Positions 1,919 through 57,757 of a stretch of DNA of 64,000 nt are shown here, one piece after another. The stretch lies in assembly GCF_000177075.1 (NCBI RefSeq), contig NZ_ADEG01000086.1, positions 1 through 64,000 on the forward strand, read 5' to 3'. Every line of letters starts with the position of its first letter. Within the stretch, counting starts at the first letter, position 1. The notes under the pieces are model-generated. The model saw nothing but the letters and a program-made list of their open reading frames with translations, was not told the origin of the DNA and made no database searches. Source of the stretch: Hoylesella buccalis ATCC 35310. GTDB taxonomy: Bacteria > Bacteroidota > Bacteroidia > Bacteroidales > Bacteroidaceae. Made by a program: the position numbers and the translations under genes.

Positions 1919-3382
1919 ATGAAATTCAGGTATATGAAGAGAAACATGATATTCGGCTTGGCCGTGTTAGGCTTGATGATGCTGACAGGTTGCTTCGGTA
2001 GCAAGTCTGCTTCTTTGGGTAAAGGCGGCGAAGTAGTGGGTGTCGGCGGAAAGGCCTTCACCGAACCCACGCCATACGGAATGACACGGGTAAGCCGTGG
2101 CTATTTGAAGATGGGGCTTGAAAAGCAGGATAGTCTTTGGGGCAAACAGTTTTCGCAGAAAGATATCTCTGTAGACGGGTTCTGGATGGATGAAACAGAG
2201 GTGACAAACTCTGAATACAAACAGTTCGTCGCCTGGGTTCGCGACAGTATCTTGCGTACCCGTTTGGCCGATCCGGCTTATGCGGGTGATGAGACTTATC
2301 TTATTACCGAGGACAAAAACGGTGACCCTGTCAAGCCTCATCTGAACTGGAAAAAAGCACTTCCCCGTAAGATGAATGAGGATGAGCAGCGCGCCTTGGA
2401 GAGTATGTATGTCACCAACCCGGTGACGGGCGAGAAGTTGCTCGACTATCGGCAGCTCAACTATCGCTACGAGGTGTACGACTATACGACCGCTGCCTTG
2501 AGAAAAAACAGAATGTTGCCTCAAGAGCGTAATCTGAATACCGACCTGACCGTTGATCCTGACGAAGTGGTGATGATTTCCAAGGACACCGCTTACGTTG
2601 ATGACAACGGACAGATTGTGAGCGAAACCATCAACCGACCACGCTCGGGTCCATGGGATTTTCTCAATACTTATATCGTTAACGTGTATCCAGACACCAC
2701 CTGTTGGGTGAATGATTTCCAAAATTCGGACAACGAAACTTATCTCCGTAACTATTTCAGCAATCCGGCATACAACGATTATCCTGTCGTGGGCGTTACT
2801 TGGGAGCAGGCCAACGCCTTCTGCGCGTGGCGAACCGATTATCTGTTAAAAGGATTGGGTGGCGAGGCTCGTTACATTCAACGATATCGTCTGCCAACAG
2901 AAGCAGAGTGGGAATATGCTGCTCGTGGCAAGGACGGCACGGAGTTCCCCTGGGAAAATGAGGCGGTAGCCACGGGTGAGGGCTGCTTCTATGCCAATTT
3001 CAAGCCCGACCGTGGCAACTATACCAAGGACGGCAACCTCATTACCAGTAAGGTCGGCATCTATGGTGCTAATTCCAATGGCTTGTACGACATGGCGGGT
3101 AATGTGGCTGAATGGACGAGTACCATATATAATGAGGCGGGTGTCGATGCAATGAACGATTTGAATCCGCAGTTGGAGTATAAGGCGGCGTTGGAAGATC
3201 CGTACAAATTGAAGAAAAAAAGTGTACGCGGCGGATCGTGGAAAGACCCAGAATCGTACATCAGAAGCGCTTGGCGTACGTGGGAATACCAAAATCAACC
3301 TCGCTCGTACATCGGGTTCCGATGTGTACGCAGCTTGGCAAACACAACCAGTACTAAACAGAAGAAAGGCAAAAGAAAATGA
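1919..3382 (+). CDS. gldK: GldK/PorK, T9SS ring lipoprotein
   Basis: GldK is an outer-membrane lipoprotein that forms the periplasmic ring of the type IX secretion system with GldN. The signal peptide ends in a lipobox (MMLTGC, Cys25). The body is a formylglycine-generating-enzyme-like (FGE-sulfatase) fold: DGFWMDETEVTNSEYKQFV early, then PVVGVTWEQANAFCAW, LPTEAEWEYAARG, YDMAGNVAEWT, RGGSWKD and GFRCVR. These are the hallmarks of GldK rather than of an active FGE. The length, 487 residues, is normal. Its stop codon overlaps the gldL start (ATGA), which indicates translational coupling in one operon. Confidence 0.95.
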   Translation: MKFRYMKRNMIFGLAVLGLMMLTGCFGSKSASLGKGGEVVGVGGKAFTEPTPYGMTRVSRGYLKMGLEKQDSLWGKQFSQKDISVDGFWMDETEVTNSEYKQFVAWVRDSILRTRLADPAYAGDETYLITEDKNGDPVKPHLNWKKALPRKMNEDEQRALESMYVTNPVTGEKLLDYRQLNYRYEVYDYTTAALRKNRMLPQERNLNTDLTVDPDEVVMISKDTAYVDDNGQIVSETINRPRSGPWDFLNTYIVNVYPDTTCWVNDFQNSDNETYLRNYFSNPAYNDYPVVGVTWEQANAFCAWRTDYLLKGLGGEARYIQRYRLPTEAEWEYAARGKDGTEFPWENEAVATGEGCFYANFKPDRGNYTKDGNLITSKVGIYGANSNGLYDMAGNVAEWTSTIYNEAGVDAMNDLNPQLEYKAALEDPYKLKKKSVRGGSWKDPESYIRSAWRTWEYQNQPRSYIGFRCVRSLANTTSTKQKKGKRK

Positions 3383-4182
3383 GTGGATATAGCAAATTCA
3401 ATATGATTTATCGTCTGCAAAAGTGGATGGACAGTGTTCCGGGGCAGACGTTCTTGAACTATGCTTACAGTTGGGGTGCGTCATTGGTTATCCTGGGAGC
3501 CTTGTTCAAACTTACTCACTTGTCTGGTGGCAACCTCATGTTGTTCATAGGAATGGGAACTGAGGTCTTCGTGTTCTTTCTCTCGGCTTTTGACCGTCCG
3601 TTTGACAAAACGGCTGACGGTCGTGACATCCCGACGCGAGTGACGGAAGAGTATTTGGAAACGGGGCAGGTAACGTATGACTATGATACGACTCCCGCAC
3701 AAGCTGTGAATACATCAAGGCCTGTTGCCTCAGCCCCACGACGCGCTGTTGTTGGACATTCGTCTGCTGCAGAGCAGTCTGTAGGGGAAGTATCTGCAGA
3801 GGTTCCCTTGGGAAGTCAAGTTCAACAGGTTGAGAATGGACAGCAATTGCAGACTTTGGCCGAAGCACAAAACAACTATGTTGATGCGCTGAAACGATTG
3901 ACGGAGACGTTAGGGAAGGTATCAGAGCAGAGTGTAAGACTGACCCGGGATAGTGAGGAAATGGAAAACCTGAACCGTACGTTGACGGGTATATCCAAAG
4001 TTTACGAAATGCAGTTGAAAGGTGCCAGTCAGCAGATAGGCACCATTGATCAAATCAATGACCAGACCCGGAAGATGGCACAACAGATTGAGCAGCTCAA
4101 CAAGATATATGCTCGCATGATTGAGGCCATGACCGTGAACATGCGCGCAGCCAATCCTGGGTTAGAGCCGTCGCAAGAGTAA
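3379..4182 (+). CDS. gldL: GldL/PorL, T9SS inner-membrane motor subunit
   Basis: GldL forms, with GldM, the proton-driven inner-membrane motor of the type IX secretion system. Two hydrophobic helices lie near the N terminus (about residues 24-46 and 52-70, with LVILGALFKLTHLSGG and LFIGMGTEVFVFFLSAF). The second carries the glutamate (GTEVFVF) known to be needed in the motor. The rest is cytoplasmic: a low-complexity linker with Ala, Val and Gln, then a coiled coil with repeated ALKRLTETL and ISKVYEMQLKGASQQI segments. It overlaps gldK by 4 bases. It is followed by an unusual octamer repeat that leads into gldM. Confidence 0.95.
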   Translation: MSGYSKFNMIYRLQKWMDSVPGQTFLNYAYSWGASLVILGALFKLTHLSGGNLMLFIGMGTEVFVFFLSAFDRPFDKTADGRDIPTRVTEEYLETGQVTYDYDTTPAQAVNTSRPVASAPRRAVVGHSSAAEQSVGEVSAEVPLGSQVQQVENGQQLQTLAEAQNNYVDALKRLTETLGKVSEQSVRLTRDSEEMENLNRTLTGISKVYEMQLKGASQQIGTIDQINDQTRKMAQQIEQLNKIYARMIEAMTVNMRAANPGLEPSQE

Positions 4183-4184
4183 AC

Positions 4185-4272
4185 AACTCATCAACTCAGG
4201 AACTCAAAAACTTATCAACTCACGAACTCACCAACTTATAAACTCAAGAACTCAAGAACTCACCAACTCACC
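4185..4272 (+). repeat. Octamer tandem repeat forming the gldM leader
   Basis: There are eleven consecutive 8-base units of the form AACTCANN (variants AACTTANN). They begin two bases after the gldL stop and end exactly at the base before the gldM ATG. The transcript of this array contains almost no G, so it should be unstructured. A longer array of the same octamer, in the same orientation relative to a gene, lies at 57622-57757. Confidence 0.9.
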
Positions 4273-5823
4273 ATGGCAATAAAGAAAAGACCGTTATCTC
4301 CGCGCCAAAAGATGATTAACCTCATGTATGTCGTCTTGATGGCAATGCTGGCTCTGAACGTTTCCACCGAAGTCTTAGAAGGATTCGCCGTGGTAGAGGA
4401 GAGCCTGAACCGTACAACGGACAACTCATCAAGGGAGAATGTGTCTATCTATCGTCAGCTCTCAGAGCAGTTCAAGTCAAATCCAGAGAAGGTGCAAGCG
4501 TGGTTTGAGAAGGCTACGACGGTGAAACGTATGAGTGACTCGCTGTATGATTTTGCGCAACAGCTCAAGGAAAACATCGTCAAAGAGGCTGACGGTCCCG
4601 ACGGAAACGTGTTCGACATCAAACACAAGGATGACCTTGAGGCCGCCTCGCACGTCATGTTGGCCCCTGGGACAGGCAAAGGAAAGCTGCTTTATGAGCG
4701 AGTGAATCATTATCGAGAGCAAATTTTGAAGATGATAACCGATGAACACCAGCGCAAGACGATAGAGAGCAACCTCACAACGCAACTGTCCAAACGCGCC
4801 AAGGCCATGGGTAAGAATTGGCAGGAATATATGTTTGAAGACATGCCCGTGTCGGCTGCCGTTACGATGTTATCCAAATTGCAAAGTGATGTGCGCTATG
4901 CCGAGGGAGAAGTGCTGCACGCACTCGTGGCCAATGTCGACGTCAAGGACATTCGTGTCAATAAATTAAGTGCCTTTGTCATCCCCGAGTCACGCACCGT
5001 TGTCAGTGGTGACCGGTTCTCTGCACAGATTGTTATGGCGGCAGTGGATACCACTCGCCAACCCGAAATATATATAGGTGGACGAAAAGTAAACTTACGA
5101 AACAATACTTACCAGTTTACTGCTGGTGGTGTTGGCGAACATTCGTTCAGTGGTTACATCACAATGCGAAATGGAAGCGGCGATGTGATACGGCGTGATT
5201 TCACGCAAAAGTATTCTGTTGTGGCGCCCAGCGCAACCGTGTCGGCCGACTTGATGAACGTATTGTACGCTGGTTATGAGAATCCCATCAGCATTAGCAT
5301 TCCTGGTGTGCCATTAACATCCGTTTCAGCATCGATGACTGGTGGAGGATTTAGGTCAGTAGGAGCTGGTAAGTACATCGCTCGTCCGACCGCTGTTGGT
5401 AAAGATGTCACCATTCAAGTGTCGTCCAATTATAATGGTGTGTCACGACAGGTGGGCAAATTCACGTTTCATGTGCGCAAATTGCCTGACCCTATTGCAT
5501 ACATTGCCATGGGAACCGATCGGTTTAAGGGCGGCGGTTTAGCCAAAGCCTCCTTGATGGGAGCCACGGGTATCAACGCTGCCATCGATGATGGCTTGTT
5601 GGATATCCAGTTCAAGGTGGTTAGTTTTGAAACCGTTTTCTTTGACAGCATGGGTAATGCCGTTCCCATGACTTCCGATGGAGCACGCTTCTCGGCTCGC
5701 CAACGTAATGAATTCCGTAAACTGTCTCGTAATCGTCGGTTCTATATATCACATGTCACGGCAGTTGGTCCTGATGGGTTAACCCGTCGACTGCCTGCGT
5801 CTATGGAAATTATCGTCAAATAA
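4273..5823 (+). CDS. gldM: GldM/PorM, T9SS motor and periplasmic shaft protein
   Basis: GldM spans from the inner membrane to the outer-membrane ring and transmits motor force in type IX secretion. A single N-terminal membrane helix (MINLMYVVLMAMLALNVSTE) is followed by a long periplasmic region: a helical D1 part (to about residue 220), then beta-rich Ig-like domains (for example VNKLSAFVIPESRTVVSGDRF) and a C-terminal domain ending GLTRRLPASMEIIVK. The length, 516 residues, is normal. The start codon directly follows the octamer repeat and no Shine-Dalgarno is visible. It lies in the gldKLMN operon, 44 bases before gldN. Confidence 0.95.
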   Translation: MAIKKRPLSPRQKMINLMYVVLMAMLALNVSTEVLEGFAVVEESLNRTTDNSSRENVSIYRQLSEQFKSNPEKVQAWFEKATTVKRMSDSLYDFAQQLKENIVKEADGPDGNVFDIKHKDDLEAASHVMLAPGTGKGKLLYERVNHYREQILKMITDEHQRKTIESNLTTQLSKRAKAMGKNWQEYMFEDMPVSAAVTMLSKLQSDVRYAEGEVLHALVANVDVKDIRVNKLSAFVIPESRTVVSGDRFSAQIVMAAVDTTRQPEIYIGGRKVNLRNNTYQFTAGGVGEHSFSGYITMRNGSGDVIRRDFTQKYSVVAPSATVSADLMNVLYAGYENPISISIPGVPLTSVSASMTGGGFRSVGAGKYIARPTAVGKDVTIQVSSNYNGVSRQVGKFTFHVRKLPDPIAYIAMGTDRFKGGGLAKASLMGATGINAAIDDGLLDIQFKVVSFETVFFDSMGNAVPMTSDGARFSARQRNEFRKLSRNRRFYISHVTAVGPDGLTRRLPASMEIIVK

Positions 5824-5867: not shown

Positions 5868-6908
5868 ATGAAGAAGAAATTATTATTCATATCCCTGTTA
5901 TTGTGTGTCGTTCAGTTCGCCATCGCACAGCCACCGGCTCGAAGAGCGCAGCAACAACGCGCACAACAGTCAAACGCCAATACGATTAGCTTGCGTGCAC
6001 AACTGTCATATCCTACTGAGGCTAAGATGACTGAGGATGTGGTATGGCGGCGCGACATCTATCGTGAGCTTGACTTAACGCAAGACGCTAATGCGGGTTT
6101 GTACTATCCTGTGGAGCCTATGGGTACGCAGATGAACCTGTTTTGCTACATTTTCAAGTTGATGATGACAGGCAATATTCGTGCGTATGAATATCGATTG
6201 GATGGTAATGAAACGTTCGAAGATTCTGCCAGGGTGAAACCCTTGGCGTTTTTGGACAACTATCATGTCTACTATGAGCGCACTGATCGTGGCATTCGTA
6301 TCGATGATAGTGATATTCCTTCGCGTGAGGTGACCGCTTATTACATCAAGGAAAGTGCTTATTATGATCAAGCTACGGCAACTTTCCATACCAAAGTCTT
6401 GGCCTTATGTCCCATTATGAAGCGGGTAGATGACTTCGGTGATGGTGCTACATCCTATCCCTTGTTCTGGGTGAAGTATGAAGATTTGGCTCCATTTCTG
6501 TCCAAGCAGACCATCATGACGAGCAACCTCAACAATGCAGCCGTGATGAGTGTGGACGACTATTTTACCAAAAACCTATATAAAGGAAAGATTTACAAGA
6601 CCAACAACATGTTGGGACGAACATTATCTCAAGAATATCCCACCGATTCGGCCATGGCGAACGCACAGAAGCGCATTGAGGCGGAAATAAAACTCTTTGA
6701 GAAAAACATGTGGGGAGACCAGGCTCGCAAGGACTCTTTGGACAGCATAGCCAAGCTCAATCCTAAAGATGTCAAGTCGAAGCGTGTGAAACGTAATCGA
6801 AGAGCGGCCGGCAAGAAGACGACTGTCAAGAGTAGTAGAAGTCGTCGTACTTCCTCTTCGTCAAGCAGTTCGCCTGCACGTGTAACCGTTAGGCGACAAC
6901 GTCATTAA
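5868..6908 (+). CDS. gldN: GldN/PorN, T9SS ring protein
   Basis: GldN is the periplasmic partner of GldK in the ring of the type IX secretion system. It has a cleavable signal peptide (LLFISLLLCVVQFAIAQ), followed by VWRRDIYRELDL and a core typical of the family, including PIMKRVDDFGDG and FWVKYEDLAPFLSK. Near residue 305 it changes to a strongly basic tail of about 40 residues rich in Lys, Arg and Ser (KRVKRNRRAAGKK, then a run of Ser), which I do not associate with the family core and which may be a lineage-specific addition. The sequence ends with a clear TAA, so this is not a frameshift. Confidence 0.93.
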   Translation: MKKKLLFISLLLCVVQFAIAQPPARRAQQQRAQQSNANTISLRAQLSYPTEAKMTEDVVWRRDIYRELDLTQDANAGLYYPVEPMGTQMNLFCYIFKLMMTGNIRAYEYRLDGNETFEDSARVKPLAFLDNYHVYYERTDRGIRIDDSDIPSREVTAYYIKESAYYDQATATFHTKVLALCPIMKRVDDFGDGATSYPLFWVKYEDLAPFLSKQTIMTSNLNNAAVMSVDDYFTKNLYKGKIYKTNNMLGRTLSQEYPTDSAMANAQKRIEAEIKLFEKNMWGDQARKDSLDSIAKLNPKDVKSKRVKRNRRAAGKKTTVKSSRSRRTSSSSSSSPARVTVRRQRH

Positions 6909-38944: not shown

Positions 38945-39006
38945 GTCAAAGTCATTGAGTTTGAGGGTCAAAGTCATTGAGTTTGGCAGTCAATGTCAAT
39001 GCTTTT
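38945..39006. repeat. Short tandem repeat with a 22-bp unit
   Basis: The unit GTCAAAGTCATTGAGTTTG plus three variable bases occurs at 38945-38966 and 38967-38988, followed by a diverged partial unit (GTCAATGTCAATGCTTTT). It lies between rpoC and the convergent sigma-factor gene and shares its core with the hairpin at 13198. Confidence 0.8.
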
Positions 39007-56011: not shown

Positions 56012-56761
56012 ATGAAAGAAGAAGTGAAAAAGACTGCTGAAGAAGTGAAAGACAAGGCAGAAAAACAAGCAAATAAAGTTGAAAAGAAAGTAGAAAAAGC
56101 GGCAGAAAACATTGCCAAGAAGGCCGATGAAGCGAAAGATAAAGCTGAGAAGAAAGTAGAAAAGGCGGCAGACAAGATTGCCCAAAAAGCCGATGATGCG
56201 AAAGATAAAGCTGACAAGAAAGTAGAAAAGGCGGCTGACGACATCGCCAAGAAGGCCGATGAAGCAAAAGAAAAGGCTGACAAAGCTATTGACAAAGCCA
56301 AGGACAAGGTTGAAAAAGGAATTGATGACTTGGAGAAAAATGAGCATGTACAAGATGCCAAGAAAAAGGTAGAGGAAGTGGTGAACGACCACAACAAAAC
56401 CGAGTGCAAGAAAGAAACTGAAAAGAAAGTTGATCAAGCAGCAAAAGACTTAAAAGAGAAAGCAAAAGAAACGGCTGACGATGTGAAGGAGAAGGTCAAA
56501 GATGCCGTTGAAAATACAAAAGAAGCTACTAAGGACGCCGTTGAAAATTTGCGAGATAAAGCAAAAGATATCACTGAAACTGTGAAAGAAAAGACGGATG
56601 AGGTGGCCGACAAACTGAAAGAAAACGAGAAGGTGCAAAACGCAGCTAAGTTTGTCAAAGAGAAGAGCGACGACCTTTCTCAGGCTGTTGACGAGGCTGC
56701 TGACAAGGTAGAACGCTCTGGCTTTTGGCAGAAACTGAAAGACATCTTTGGGTTTAAATAA
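56012..56761 (+). CDS. Highly charged LEA/apolipoprotein-like repeat protein
   Basis: A 249-residue protein made almost entirely of Lys, Glu, Asp and Ala. I use the ATG at 56012 (MKEEVKKTAEEVK); an upstream ATG at 55976 adds 12 unlike residues. Three 22-residue units (VEKAAENIAKKADEAKDKAE, VEKAADKIAQKADDAKDKAD, VEKAADDIAKKADEAKEKAD, each plus KK or KA) are followed by more degenerate 11-residue amphipathic repeats, and a short hydrophobic C terminus (GFWQKLKDIFGFK). The pattern is that of group-3 LEA or apolipoprotein-like proteins, which protect proteins or membranes in stress. There is no signal peptide. Open antisense frames here are an artefact of composition. Confidence 0.8.
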   Translation: MKEEVKKTAEEVKDKAEKQANKVEKKVEKAAENIAKKADEAKDKAEKKVEKAADKIAQKADDAKDKADKKVEKAADDIAKKADEAKEKADKAIDKAKDKVEKGIDDLEKNEHVQDAKKKVEEVVNDHNKTECKKETEKKVDQAAKDLKEKAKETADDVKEKVKDAVENTKEATKDAVENLRDKAKDITETVKEKTDEVADKLKENEKVQNAAKFVKEKSDDLSQAVDEAADKVERSGFWQKLKDIFGFK

Positions 56762-57356: not shown

Positions 57357-57617
57357 TCATGTTGCTATGCCATTTATCATTTTCTCCAATTGTTGTACAG
57401 CCTCATCCATTTCACTTGCAAAAGTTTCTGATGGCTGCAAAAAGGATTCACGTCCCCTTGCCAGAAGGGCATACAATTCTTTGTTCATGCCATTCACATA
57501 CGAACTGATGGCGTATTCGATATCTTCTTTCTGCCACTGCATGGTTGAATAACGATACACCTGCCACTTTTGATGGAAAAAACTATAAGCTGTTTCTATG
57601 CTGTCTTTGGGAATCAT
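57357..57617 (-). CDS. Conserved hypothetical protein, 86 residues
   Basis: A small protein, MIPKDSIETAYSFFHQKWQV, YRYSTMQWQKEDIEYAISSY, VNGMNKELYALLARGRESFL, with an amphipathic, helical, acidic C-terminal region. There is no signal peptide or membrane segment. I do not recognise a named family, but the composition is that of a real protein and similar sequences seem to occur in Prevotella. Its start codon follows, after only 4 bases, a 17-unit octamer repeat of the kind that precedes gldM. I see no neighbour that suggests a role. Confidence 0.7.
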   Translation of the reverse strand: MIPKDSIETAYSFFHQKWQVYRYSTMQWQKEDIEYAISSYVNGMNKELYALLARGRESFLQPSETFASEMDEAVQQLEKMINGIAT

Positions 57618-57621
57618 GAGG

Positions 57622-57757
57622 TGAGTTGATGAGTTGGTAAGTTTATAAGTTTATGAGTTTGTGAGTTGATAAGTTGGTAAGATGATGAGCTTTTGAGTTA
57701 ATAAGTTGGTAAGTTAGTGAGTTGATGCGTTATTTAGTTATTGAGTTAATGAGTTAA
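57622..57757 (-). repeat. Octamer tandem repeat in the leader of the 86-residue gene
   Basis: On the minus strand there are seventeen consecutive 8-base units of the form NNAACTCA (variants AACTTA), ending 4 bases before the ATG at 57617. On the plus strand the units read TGAGTTNN or TAAGTTNN. The leader RNA has almost no G. A few more degenerate units follow to about 57773. Confidence 0.9.

Follow-up and report, generated by a model that had tools for sequence, protein, structure and literature searches.

Start-site choice in the Bacteroidetes, whose ribosomes use no Shine-Dalgarno (SD) pairing, is only partly understood. The spacer between gldL and gldM of Hoylesella buccalis ATCC 35310 raises the matter in concrete form, for nearly all of it is a short tandem repeat that stops flush with the gldM start codon. 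What kind of element is this repeat, and could it serve as a leader that brings ribosomes to gldM? We analysed the repeat within a stretch of 64,000 nucleotides (the window), compared it with its counterparts in related genomes, and set it beside the known systems that it most resembles. The array is real and non-random. Judged from sequence comparisons, the idea that it acts as a leader is plausible and is backed by conservation, and copy-number tuning finds no support at this locus.

The proteins encoded by gldK, gldL, gldM, and gldN all score above the NCBIfam equivalog cut-offs and are confirmed as T9SS proteins, which for gldL and gldM bears out the gene names given in a first-pass annotation of the same DNA. 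The features of the window that concern us here are collected in the table.

Features of the window that bear on the repeat array and its relatives
Feature	Position	Strand	Basis or remark
gldK, member of gld cluster	1919..3382	+	TIGR03525 equivalog
gldL, T9SS motor protein, upstream of array	3379..4182	+	TIGR03513 equivalog, 130.8 bits; Pfam GldL_N
AC dinucleotide, junction of gldL stop and first unit	4183..4184	+	identical in four genomes
AACTYANN array, 11 in-register 8-bp units forming the whole gldM leader	4185..4272	+	sequence read, TRF, folding, four-genome comparison
gldM, T9SS motor protein, ATG abuts array end	4273..5823	+	TIGR03517 equivalog, 603 bits
gldN, member of gld cluster	5868..6908	+	TIGR03523 equivalog
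86-aa ORF downstream of second array	57357..57617	-	no family match
Second AACTYANN array, about 17 units, stops 4 nt short of a minus-strand ATG	57622..57755	-	TRF, pattern search

The gldL stop codon (TAA, 4180-4182) is followed by AC and then by the array, after which the gldM ATG begins at 4273. The first-pass annotation had drawn the array from two bases past the gldL stop to the base before the gldM ATG, and these limits are confirmed; TRF reports a period of 8 with 11.2 copies at 4184-4273. The annotation had also described eleven perfect units. Eleven units are indeed present, but they are not all perfect copies of AACTCANN: nine units are of this AACTCA type, while unit 4 (AACTTATC) and unit 7 (AACTTATA) are of the AACTTA type, AACTTANN, and the consensus is hence AACTYANN. 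Neighbouring units are mostly non-identical. When the spacer was shuffled 200 times with its dinucleotides preserved, the periodicity score was never as high; this result, together with the genome-wide excess of the pattern over a reversed control that is described below, led us to reject a chance repeat.

The leader consists of 43% A, 33% C, 18% T, and 6% G. Its predicted MFE is 0 kcal/mol, and 200 of 200 shuffles fold at least as well; the region from -35 to +20 of gldM has a predicted energy of -1.3 kcal/mol, compared with a median of -2.4 kcal/mol for the window. Thus, the earlier description of the leader as almost free of G and unstructured holds good. An A of the last array unit sits at position -3 of gldM in each of the four genomes that carry the array. 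The spacer holds a single sense array that is unpaired with any inverted partner. A search of the 64-kb window against Rfam 15 at the gathering score returned tRNAs only, with no described RNA family at the array.

The four genomes with the array at gldM are the present one, Prevotella sp. BV3P1 and G191 (99% GldM identity to the window's GldM in both cases), and G029 (86% GldM identity). The match to BV3P1 marks the window as Prevotella DNA. The four form one clade with strong support (100/99) in the GldM tree. All of them have a spacer of exactly 90 bp, made up of AC and eleven units. The first-pass annotation had proposed that slipped-strand changes in unit number would tune GldM relative to GldL, and it had named a fixed number, combined with no effect on translation, among the outcomes that would tell against its reading; the number is fixed at eleven in the four genomes. 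Moreover, the variable positions match best in register in six of six genome pairs (permutation p from below 0.0002 to 0.04), so unit order has been kept and net gain or loss is zero. The proposed slippage and tuning are therefore not borne out at gldM.

The case for conservation rests on the one distant genome, G029 (the other three being close strains): between it and the present genome, gldM is 76% identical and 134 of 216 four-fold sites (62%) differ, and yet not one of the 55 AACT.A core positions differs between the two (compared with the four-fold sites, p = 7e-20). Twelve of the 22 NN positions differ in the same comparison, as four-fold sites do (p = 0.5). Over all six genome pairs, the core shows either 0 or 1 difference in 55 positions. 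Within the unit, A1, A2, and A6 are as frozen as C3 and T4, and position 5 varies freely between C and T. By eye, the gldM-gldN and gldN-omp spacers of the present genome appear unrelated to those of G029; the 44-bp spacer upstream of gldN served as a comparison spacer. A frozen core and a fixed length fit the pattern that would be expected under purifying selection. Between the present genome and BV3P1, 10 of 22 NN positions differ, which exceeds the 41 of 252 seen at four-fold sites (p = 0.002), and 12 of 33 variable array sites differ versus 2 of 86 sites in neighbouring spacers. This faster change at NN may reflect some exchange at the level of the unit.

The gldM array belongs to a family. 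A three-unit pattern with one mismatch allowed gave 48 + 42 matches across the genome, whereas the reversed control pattern gave 5 + 4. We located arrays by this search and read the stretches around the matches, which merge to about 25 AACTYANN arrays, a figure that depends on the three-unit pattern; the gldM array is one of them, and 25 of 25 are intergenic. No G occurs at unit position 5 among the approximately 190 AACT units in these arrays. Their orientation was scored together with that of arrays sampled from G028 and G174. With genes called by a simple ORF rule, under which single cases may be wrong, arrays near starts are 22 sense and 1 antisense, and arrays near stops are 5 sense and 17 antisense (Fisher p = 4e-7). 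The nearest gene edge faces the 3-prime AACTYA end in 39 of the 45 pooled arrays (p = 5e-7). Arrays elsewhere are thus placed non-randomly relative to genes, as the leader idea of the first-pass annotation had supposed. Folding offers one simple explanation for the preference for sense arrays near starts: joined to the first 20 nt of gldM, the gldM leader has a predicted energy of -1.3 kcal/mol as it stands and of -15.4 kcal/mol as its reverse complement.

Several longer spacers carry arrays of both orientations as an inverted pair, stop-(TGAGTTNN)n ... (AACTCANN)n-start, and eight such spacers fold with z from -2.7 to -16. A hairpin or terminator role was considered for gldM and rejected, since the array there folds at 0 kcal/mol and hairpins suit only the paired arrays in longer spacers. 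A second flavour of unit, AACTYGTN, is found at dozens of places (examples in the present genome are L256, L258, L259, L261, L262, and L264), in many cases as strongly folding inverted pairs whose polarity is constant (GAGTT...AACTC); these pairs could be a hairpin element or a terminator. The second array of the window lies in a spacer that is equal in length in BV3P1, with interior units that differ. The 86-aa ORF that follows this array, being without a family match, may not be a real gene.

Among 18 orthologous arrays compared between the present genome and BV3P1, several are equal in total length and others differ by one to three units; the L047 array is missing from BV3P1. At two pairs of corresponding spacers (L274, positions 950-1600, with L155; L275, positions 980-1200, with L141; the first of each pair from the present genome), wholly different repeats occupy the same place, with GC-rich blocks of about 95 bp or units of about 22 bp in one strain and 8- and 7-bp arrays in the other. 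The flanks of these spacers are about 95% identical between the two strains.

Repeat-filled spacers extend well beyond this clade. In gld neighbourhoods of 79 genomes, significant arrays occupy 44 of 253 co-directional spacers (about 17%), compared with 1 of 45 spacers from other Bacteroidales families, 0 of 10 from a 50-kb E. coli stretch, and, at a similar threshold, 3 of 252 pieces of coding sequence. This survey suggests that short lineage-specific arrays account for a sizeable fraction of the spacers in Prevotella operons, which bears on how spacers, assemblies, and regulatory regions are to be read in this abundant gut genus. Genomes rich in AACTYANN number about a dozen in a sample of 200 of the genus and are scattered, with 7 changes needed on a GldM tree of 45 rows. 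Most Prevotella have no AACTYANN array at gldM, and their gldL and gldM are often overlapping or short-spaced. The units in the spacers of other Prevotella differ and are mostly 7, 8, or 9 bp long; examples from unrelated Prevotella, the gldM spacer included, are GAATTAA, CAGGTCCGA, GGATGAA, ACAACCAN, ATAACGNA, and ACTAGTTTG (L085, L097, L104, L106, L118, and L120). One Prevotella clade has arrays of the 9-mer CCYATAAGW, a unit unrelated to AACTYANN, throughout its genomes. In this clade the gldM leader has, counted by eye, 5, 7, and 9 units in three genomes that are about 95% identical over gldM. Copy number in a gldM leader can therefore change in another clade; no such change is seen in the lineage of the window.

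We tentatively favour, at somewhat less than an even chance, the interpretation that the gldM array is a selected, fixed-length, sequence-specific RNA leader that recruits ribosomes without SD pairing, rather than noise or a rheostat. The gld genes would share one mRNA, on which the 88 nt between gldL and gldM would form a single-stranded, nearly G-free track that presents AACUYA every 8 nt. A putative RNA-binding factor, either ribosome-associated or free, would read these repeats as single-stranded RNA and bring 30S subunits to the SD-less start codon, and gldM could in this way be initiated independently of gldL. The array probably originated in a repeat-spreading process that filled Prevotella spacers and was afterwards held constant at gldM. 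Candidate types of reader are S1-, RRM-, and cold-shock-like proteins. S1 alone prefers A/U-rich RNA with no strict sequence, and for that reason S1 alone fails to explain a frozen hexamer. RRM proteins are candidates and no more, and they are considered because RbpB, an RRM protein of B. thetaiotaomicron, prefers AU-rich sequence such as that around ribosome binding sites (PMC11697453). RbpB is a sequence-selective binder of single-stranded RNA from the same phylum and the kind of reader that could fit, although its motifs are not AACUYA.

A translation-enhancing role, as the first-pass annotation had suggested, is plausible by analogy because translation in Prevotella tolerates little leader structure: it ignores SD sequences, and a leader structure of -5.2 kcal/mol reduces it to about one fifth (PMC3155529). 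Binding of S1 to unstructured leaders is a proposal of that same study. In Flavobacterium, initiation is aided by an A at -3 (PMC6847099). Independent initiation of gldM could answer a plausible need, given that GldL and GldM assemble in a 5:2 ratio (PMC9389320); against such a need, other Prevotella manage with overlapping gldL and gldM. The gldM leader is a direct handle on start-site choice: its exact hexamer and repeat number have outlasted a divergence that has changed 62% of four-fold sites, and a leader frozen in this manner predicts either a reader that recognises the sequence or a strict demand on geometry. A broader version, which we consider unlikely, would have genome-wide leader repeat codes of 7-9 nt replace the missing SD in Prevotella lineages, with a matched RNA-binding factor for the word of each lineage recruiting ribosomes and with loci such as gldM keeping an exact number of sites.

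Other explanations of the array have to be weighed against a ribosome-recruiting leader. Under concerted evolution, conversion or template switching among arrays would keep the cores uniform and shuffle the NN positions with no function involved, and the position at gene edges would reflect tolerance. The occurrence of the AACTYANN unit at about 25 places in the genome is in keeping with such exchange, as are the NN and Y positions that outpace four-fold sites between close strains, the gain, loss, or replacement of other arrays between the present genome and BV3P1, and the lineage-specific units and patchy abundance across Prevotella; exchange alone would be able to keep cores uniform without selection. 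However, unselected exchange should alter unit number and unit order, neither of which differs at gldM among the four genomes. Homogenisation is also not general, for interior units are perfect in 9 of 9 cases at gldM versus 59 of 108 in the other arrays of this genome, a gap explained in part by mixing of some of those arrays with the AACTYG flavour. We therefore judge concerted evolution by itself to be somewhat unlikely. Still less can be said for a contingency locus, in which slipped-strand changes in unit number would tune or phase-vary GldM against GldL. The differing unit numbers of the 9-bp gldM leaders in the other clade, and the AACTYANN arrays that differ by one to three units from those of BV3P1, are what such a locus would lead one to expect, but at gldM itself eleven units stand in the same order in four of four genomes, and the mostly non-identical neighbouring units should slow slippage. 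We hold this explanation to be very improbable.

The remaining two alternatives grant the array a function of another kind. If the leader were a Rho-loading (rut) site, Rho would bind the ribosome-free, C-rich, G-poor 88 nt when gldM is poorly translated and would cut the message there, so that gldMN is lowered relative to gldKL. We treat this as a serious rival because the leader closely matches the published description of rut sites, which are unstructured, untranslated RNAs of at least 70-80 nt with more C than G and regularly spaced C (PMC6407284): the leader has 29 C and 5 G in its 88 nt, UC in most of its units, and an MFE of 0 kcal/mol, and only about 0.006% of the plus-strand 78-nt windows in the 64 kb have a C/G ratio as high. 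Yet rut sites have no fixed hexamer, and Rho needs C and not flanking A, whereas A1, A2, and A6 are frozen just as C3 and T4 are; furthermore, the UC depends on position 5, and this alone of the core positions is free to be either C or T. A rut site is for these reasons distinctly unlikely. The array might instead act at the level of DNA, as tandem sites for a DNA-binding protein or as an element in replication or recombination, the RNA being without a role. Any sequence-specific binder would suit an 8-bp period with a frozen core, and arrays do occur at stops and not at starts alone. On the other hand, both the 22:1 strand bias near starts and the way the array stops directly at the ATG speak for the RNA, and with a period of 8 bp neighbouring sites look out from different sides of the helix. 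We think a DNA-level role quite improbable.

Among described elements, the nearest in kind are the arrays of direct heptamer repeats, TAACTGA, found in Beggiatoaceae, Cyanobacteria, and a few Bacteroidetes (MacGregor 2015, PMC4679880). These repeats are patchily distributed, mostly forward, and located a few nucleotides before starts, and a translational role was proposed for them. Of the 14 sets in Flexibacter litoralis, 12 run forward and lie 1-43 nt ahead of a start, and one stands in reverse orientation immediately behind a stop, so the sets share with AACTYANN arrays the two modes of sense at starts and reversed at stops. Both kinds of array are short, tandem, intergenic, start-adjacent, forward, unstructured, and patchy: the gldM array is flush with its ATG and has an MFE of 0 kcal/mol, and the arrays related to it are sense over antisense by 22 to 1 near starts and intergenic in 25 of 25 cases. 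The AACTGA core of TAACTGA and the AACTYA core differ by one base. However, TAACTGA has 7 nt, zero free positions, and a home in another lineage, whereas the unit described here has 8 nt and two free positions, repeats with a period of 8, and has no G at position 5 in about 190 units. Since unit length and free positions differ, the gldM array is related to that kind as a variant but does not belong to it. A conserved unit number and a frozen core are seen at gldM, and the available part of the MacGregor paper reports neither for TAACTGA. The phase-variable simple repeats of Moraxella uspA1 and uspA2, cited in the same paper, likewise form tandem arrays in the leader, placed after an upstream element and ahead of the start, but they vary in copy number between strains and change expression, whereas the number at gldM is fixed.

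The gldM leader also resembles the SD-less leaders of Bacteroidetes described in Prevotella bryantii (PMC3155529) and Flavobacterium johnsoniae (PMC6847099) in its low G content (6%), its little structure (-1.3 kcal/mol at -35 to +20), and its A at -3, which is present in four genomes. Unlike the gldM leader, ordinary leaders of this type need no repeat and no fixed hexamer. Our literature search, which covered few subscription journals, found nothing on octamer arrays in Prevotella, and it found no paper that ties the TMV omega leader to S1 as a G-free enhancer analogue, a comparison that we leave aside for this reason. What appears new here is the conservation of an exact unit number and core at one locus, together with how widely lineage-specific repeats fill spacers across the genus.

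Some minor observations concern the repeats of other spacers and of the window. At seven sampled loci of genome G321 (L228, L236, L237, L238, L242, L244, and L245), the CCYATAAGW array starts within the upstream gene, which takes its stop codon from the TAA in the leading unit. Maintenance of stop codons through reverse-strand TGA/TAA was considered and finds no support, as the non-stop GG is not depleted in the 9-mer clade (4 GG, 56 AA, 14 AG, and 4 GA). The window contains two further tandem repeats. One, at 38945-38998, has 2.5 copies of a 22-bp unit, GTCAAAGTCATTGAGTTTGACA, with partly palindromic ends. The other, at 56073-56317, has a 66-bp unit that is, judging by its consensus, rich in Lys and Ala codons.
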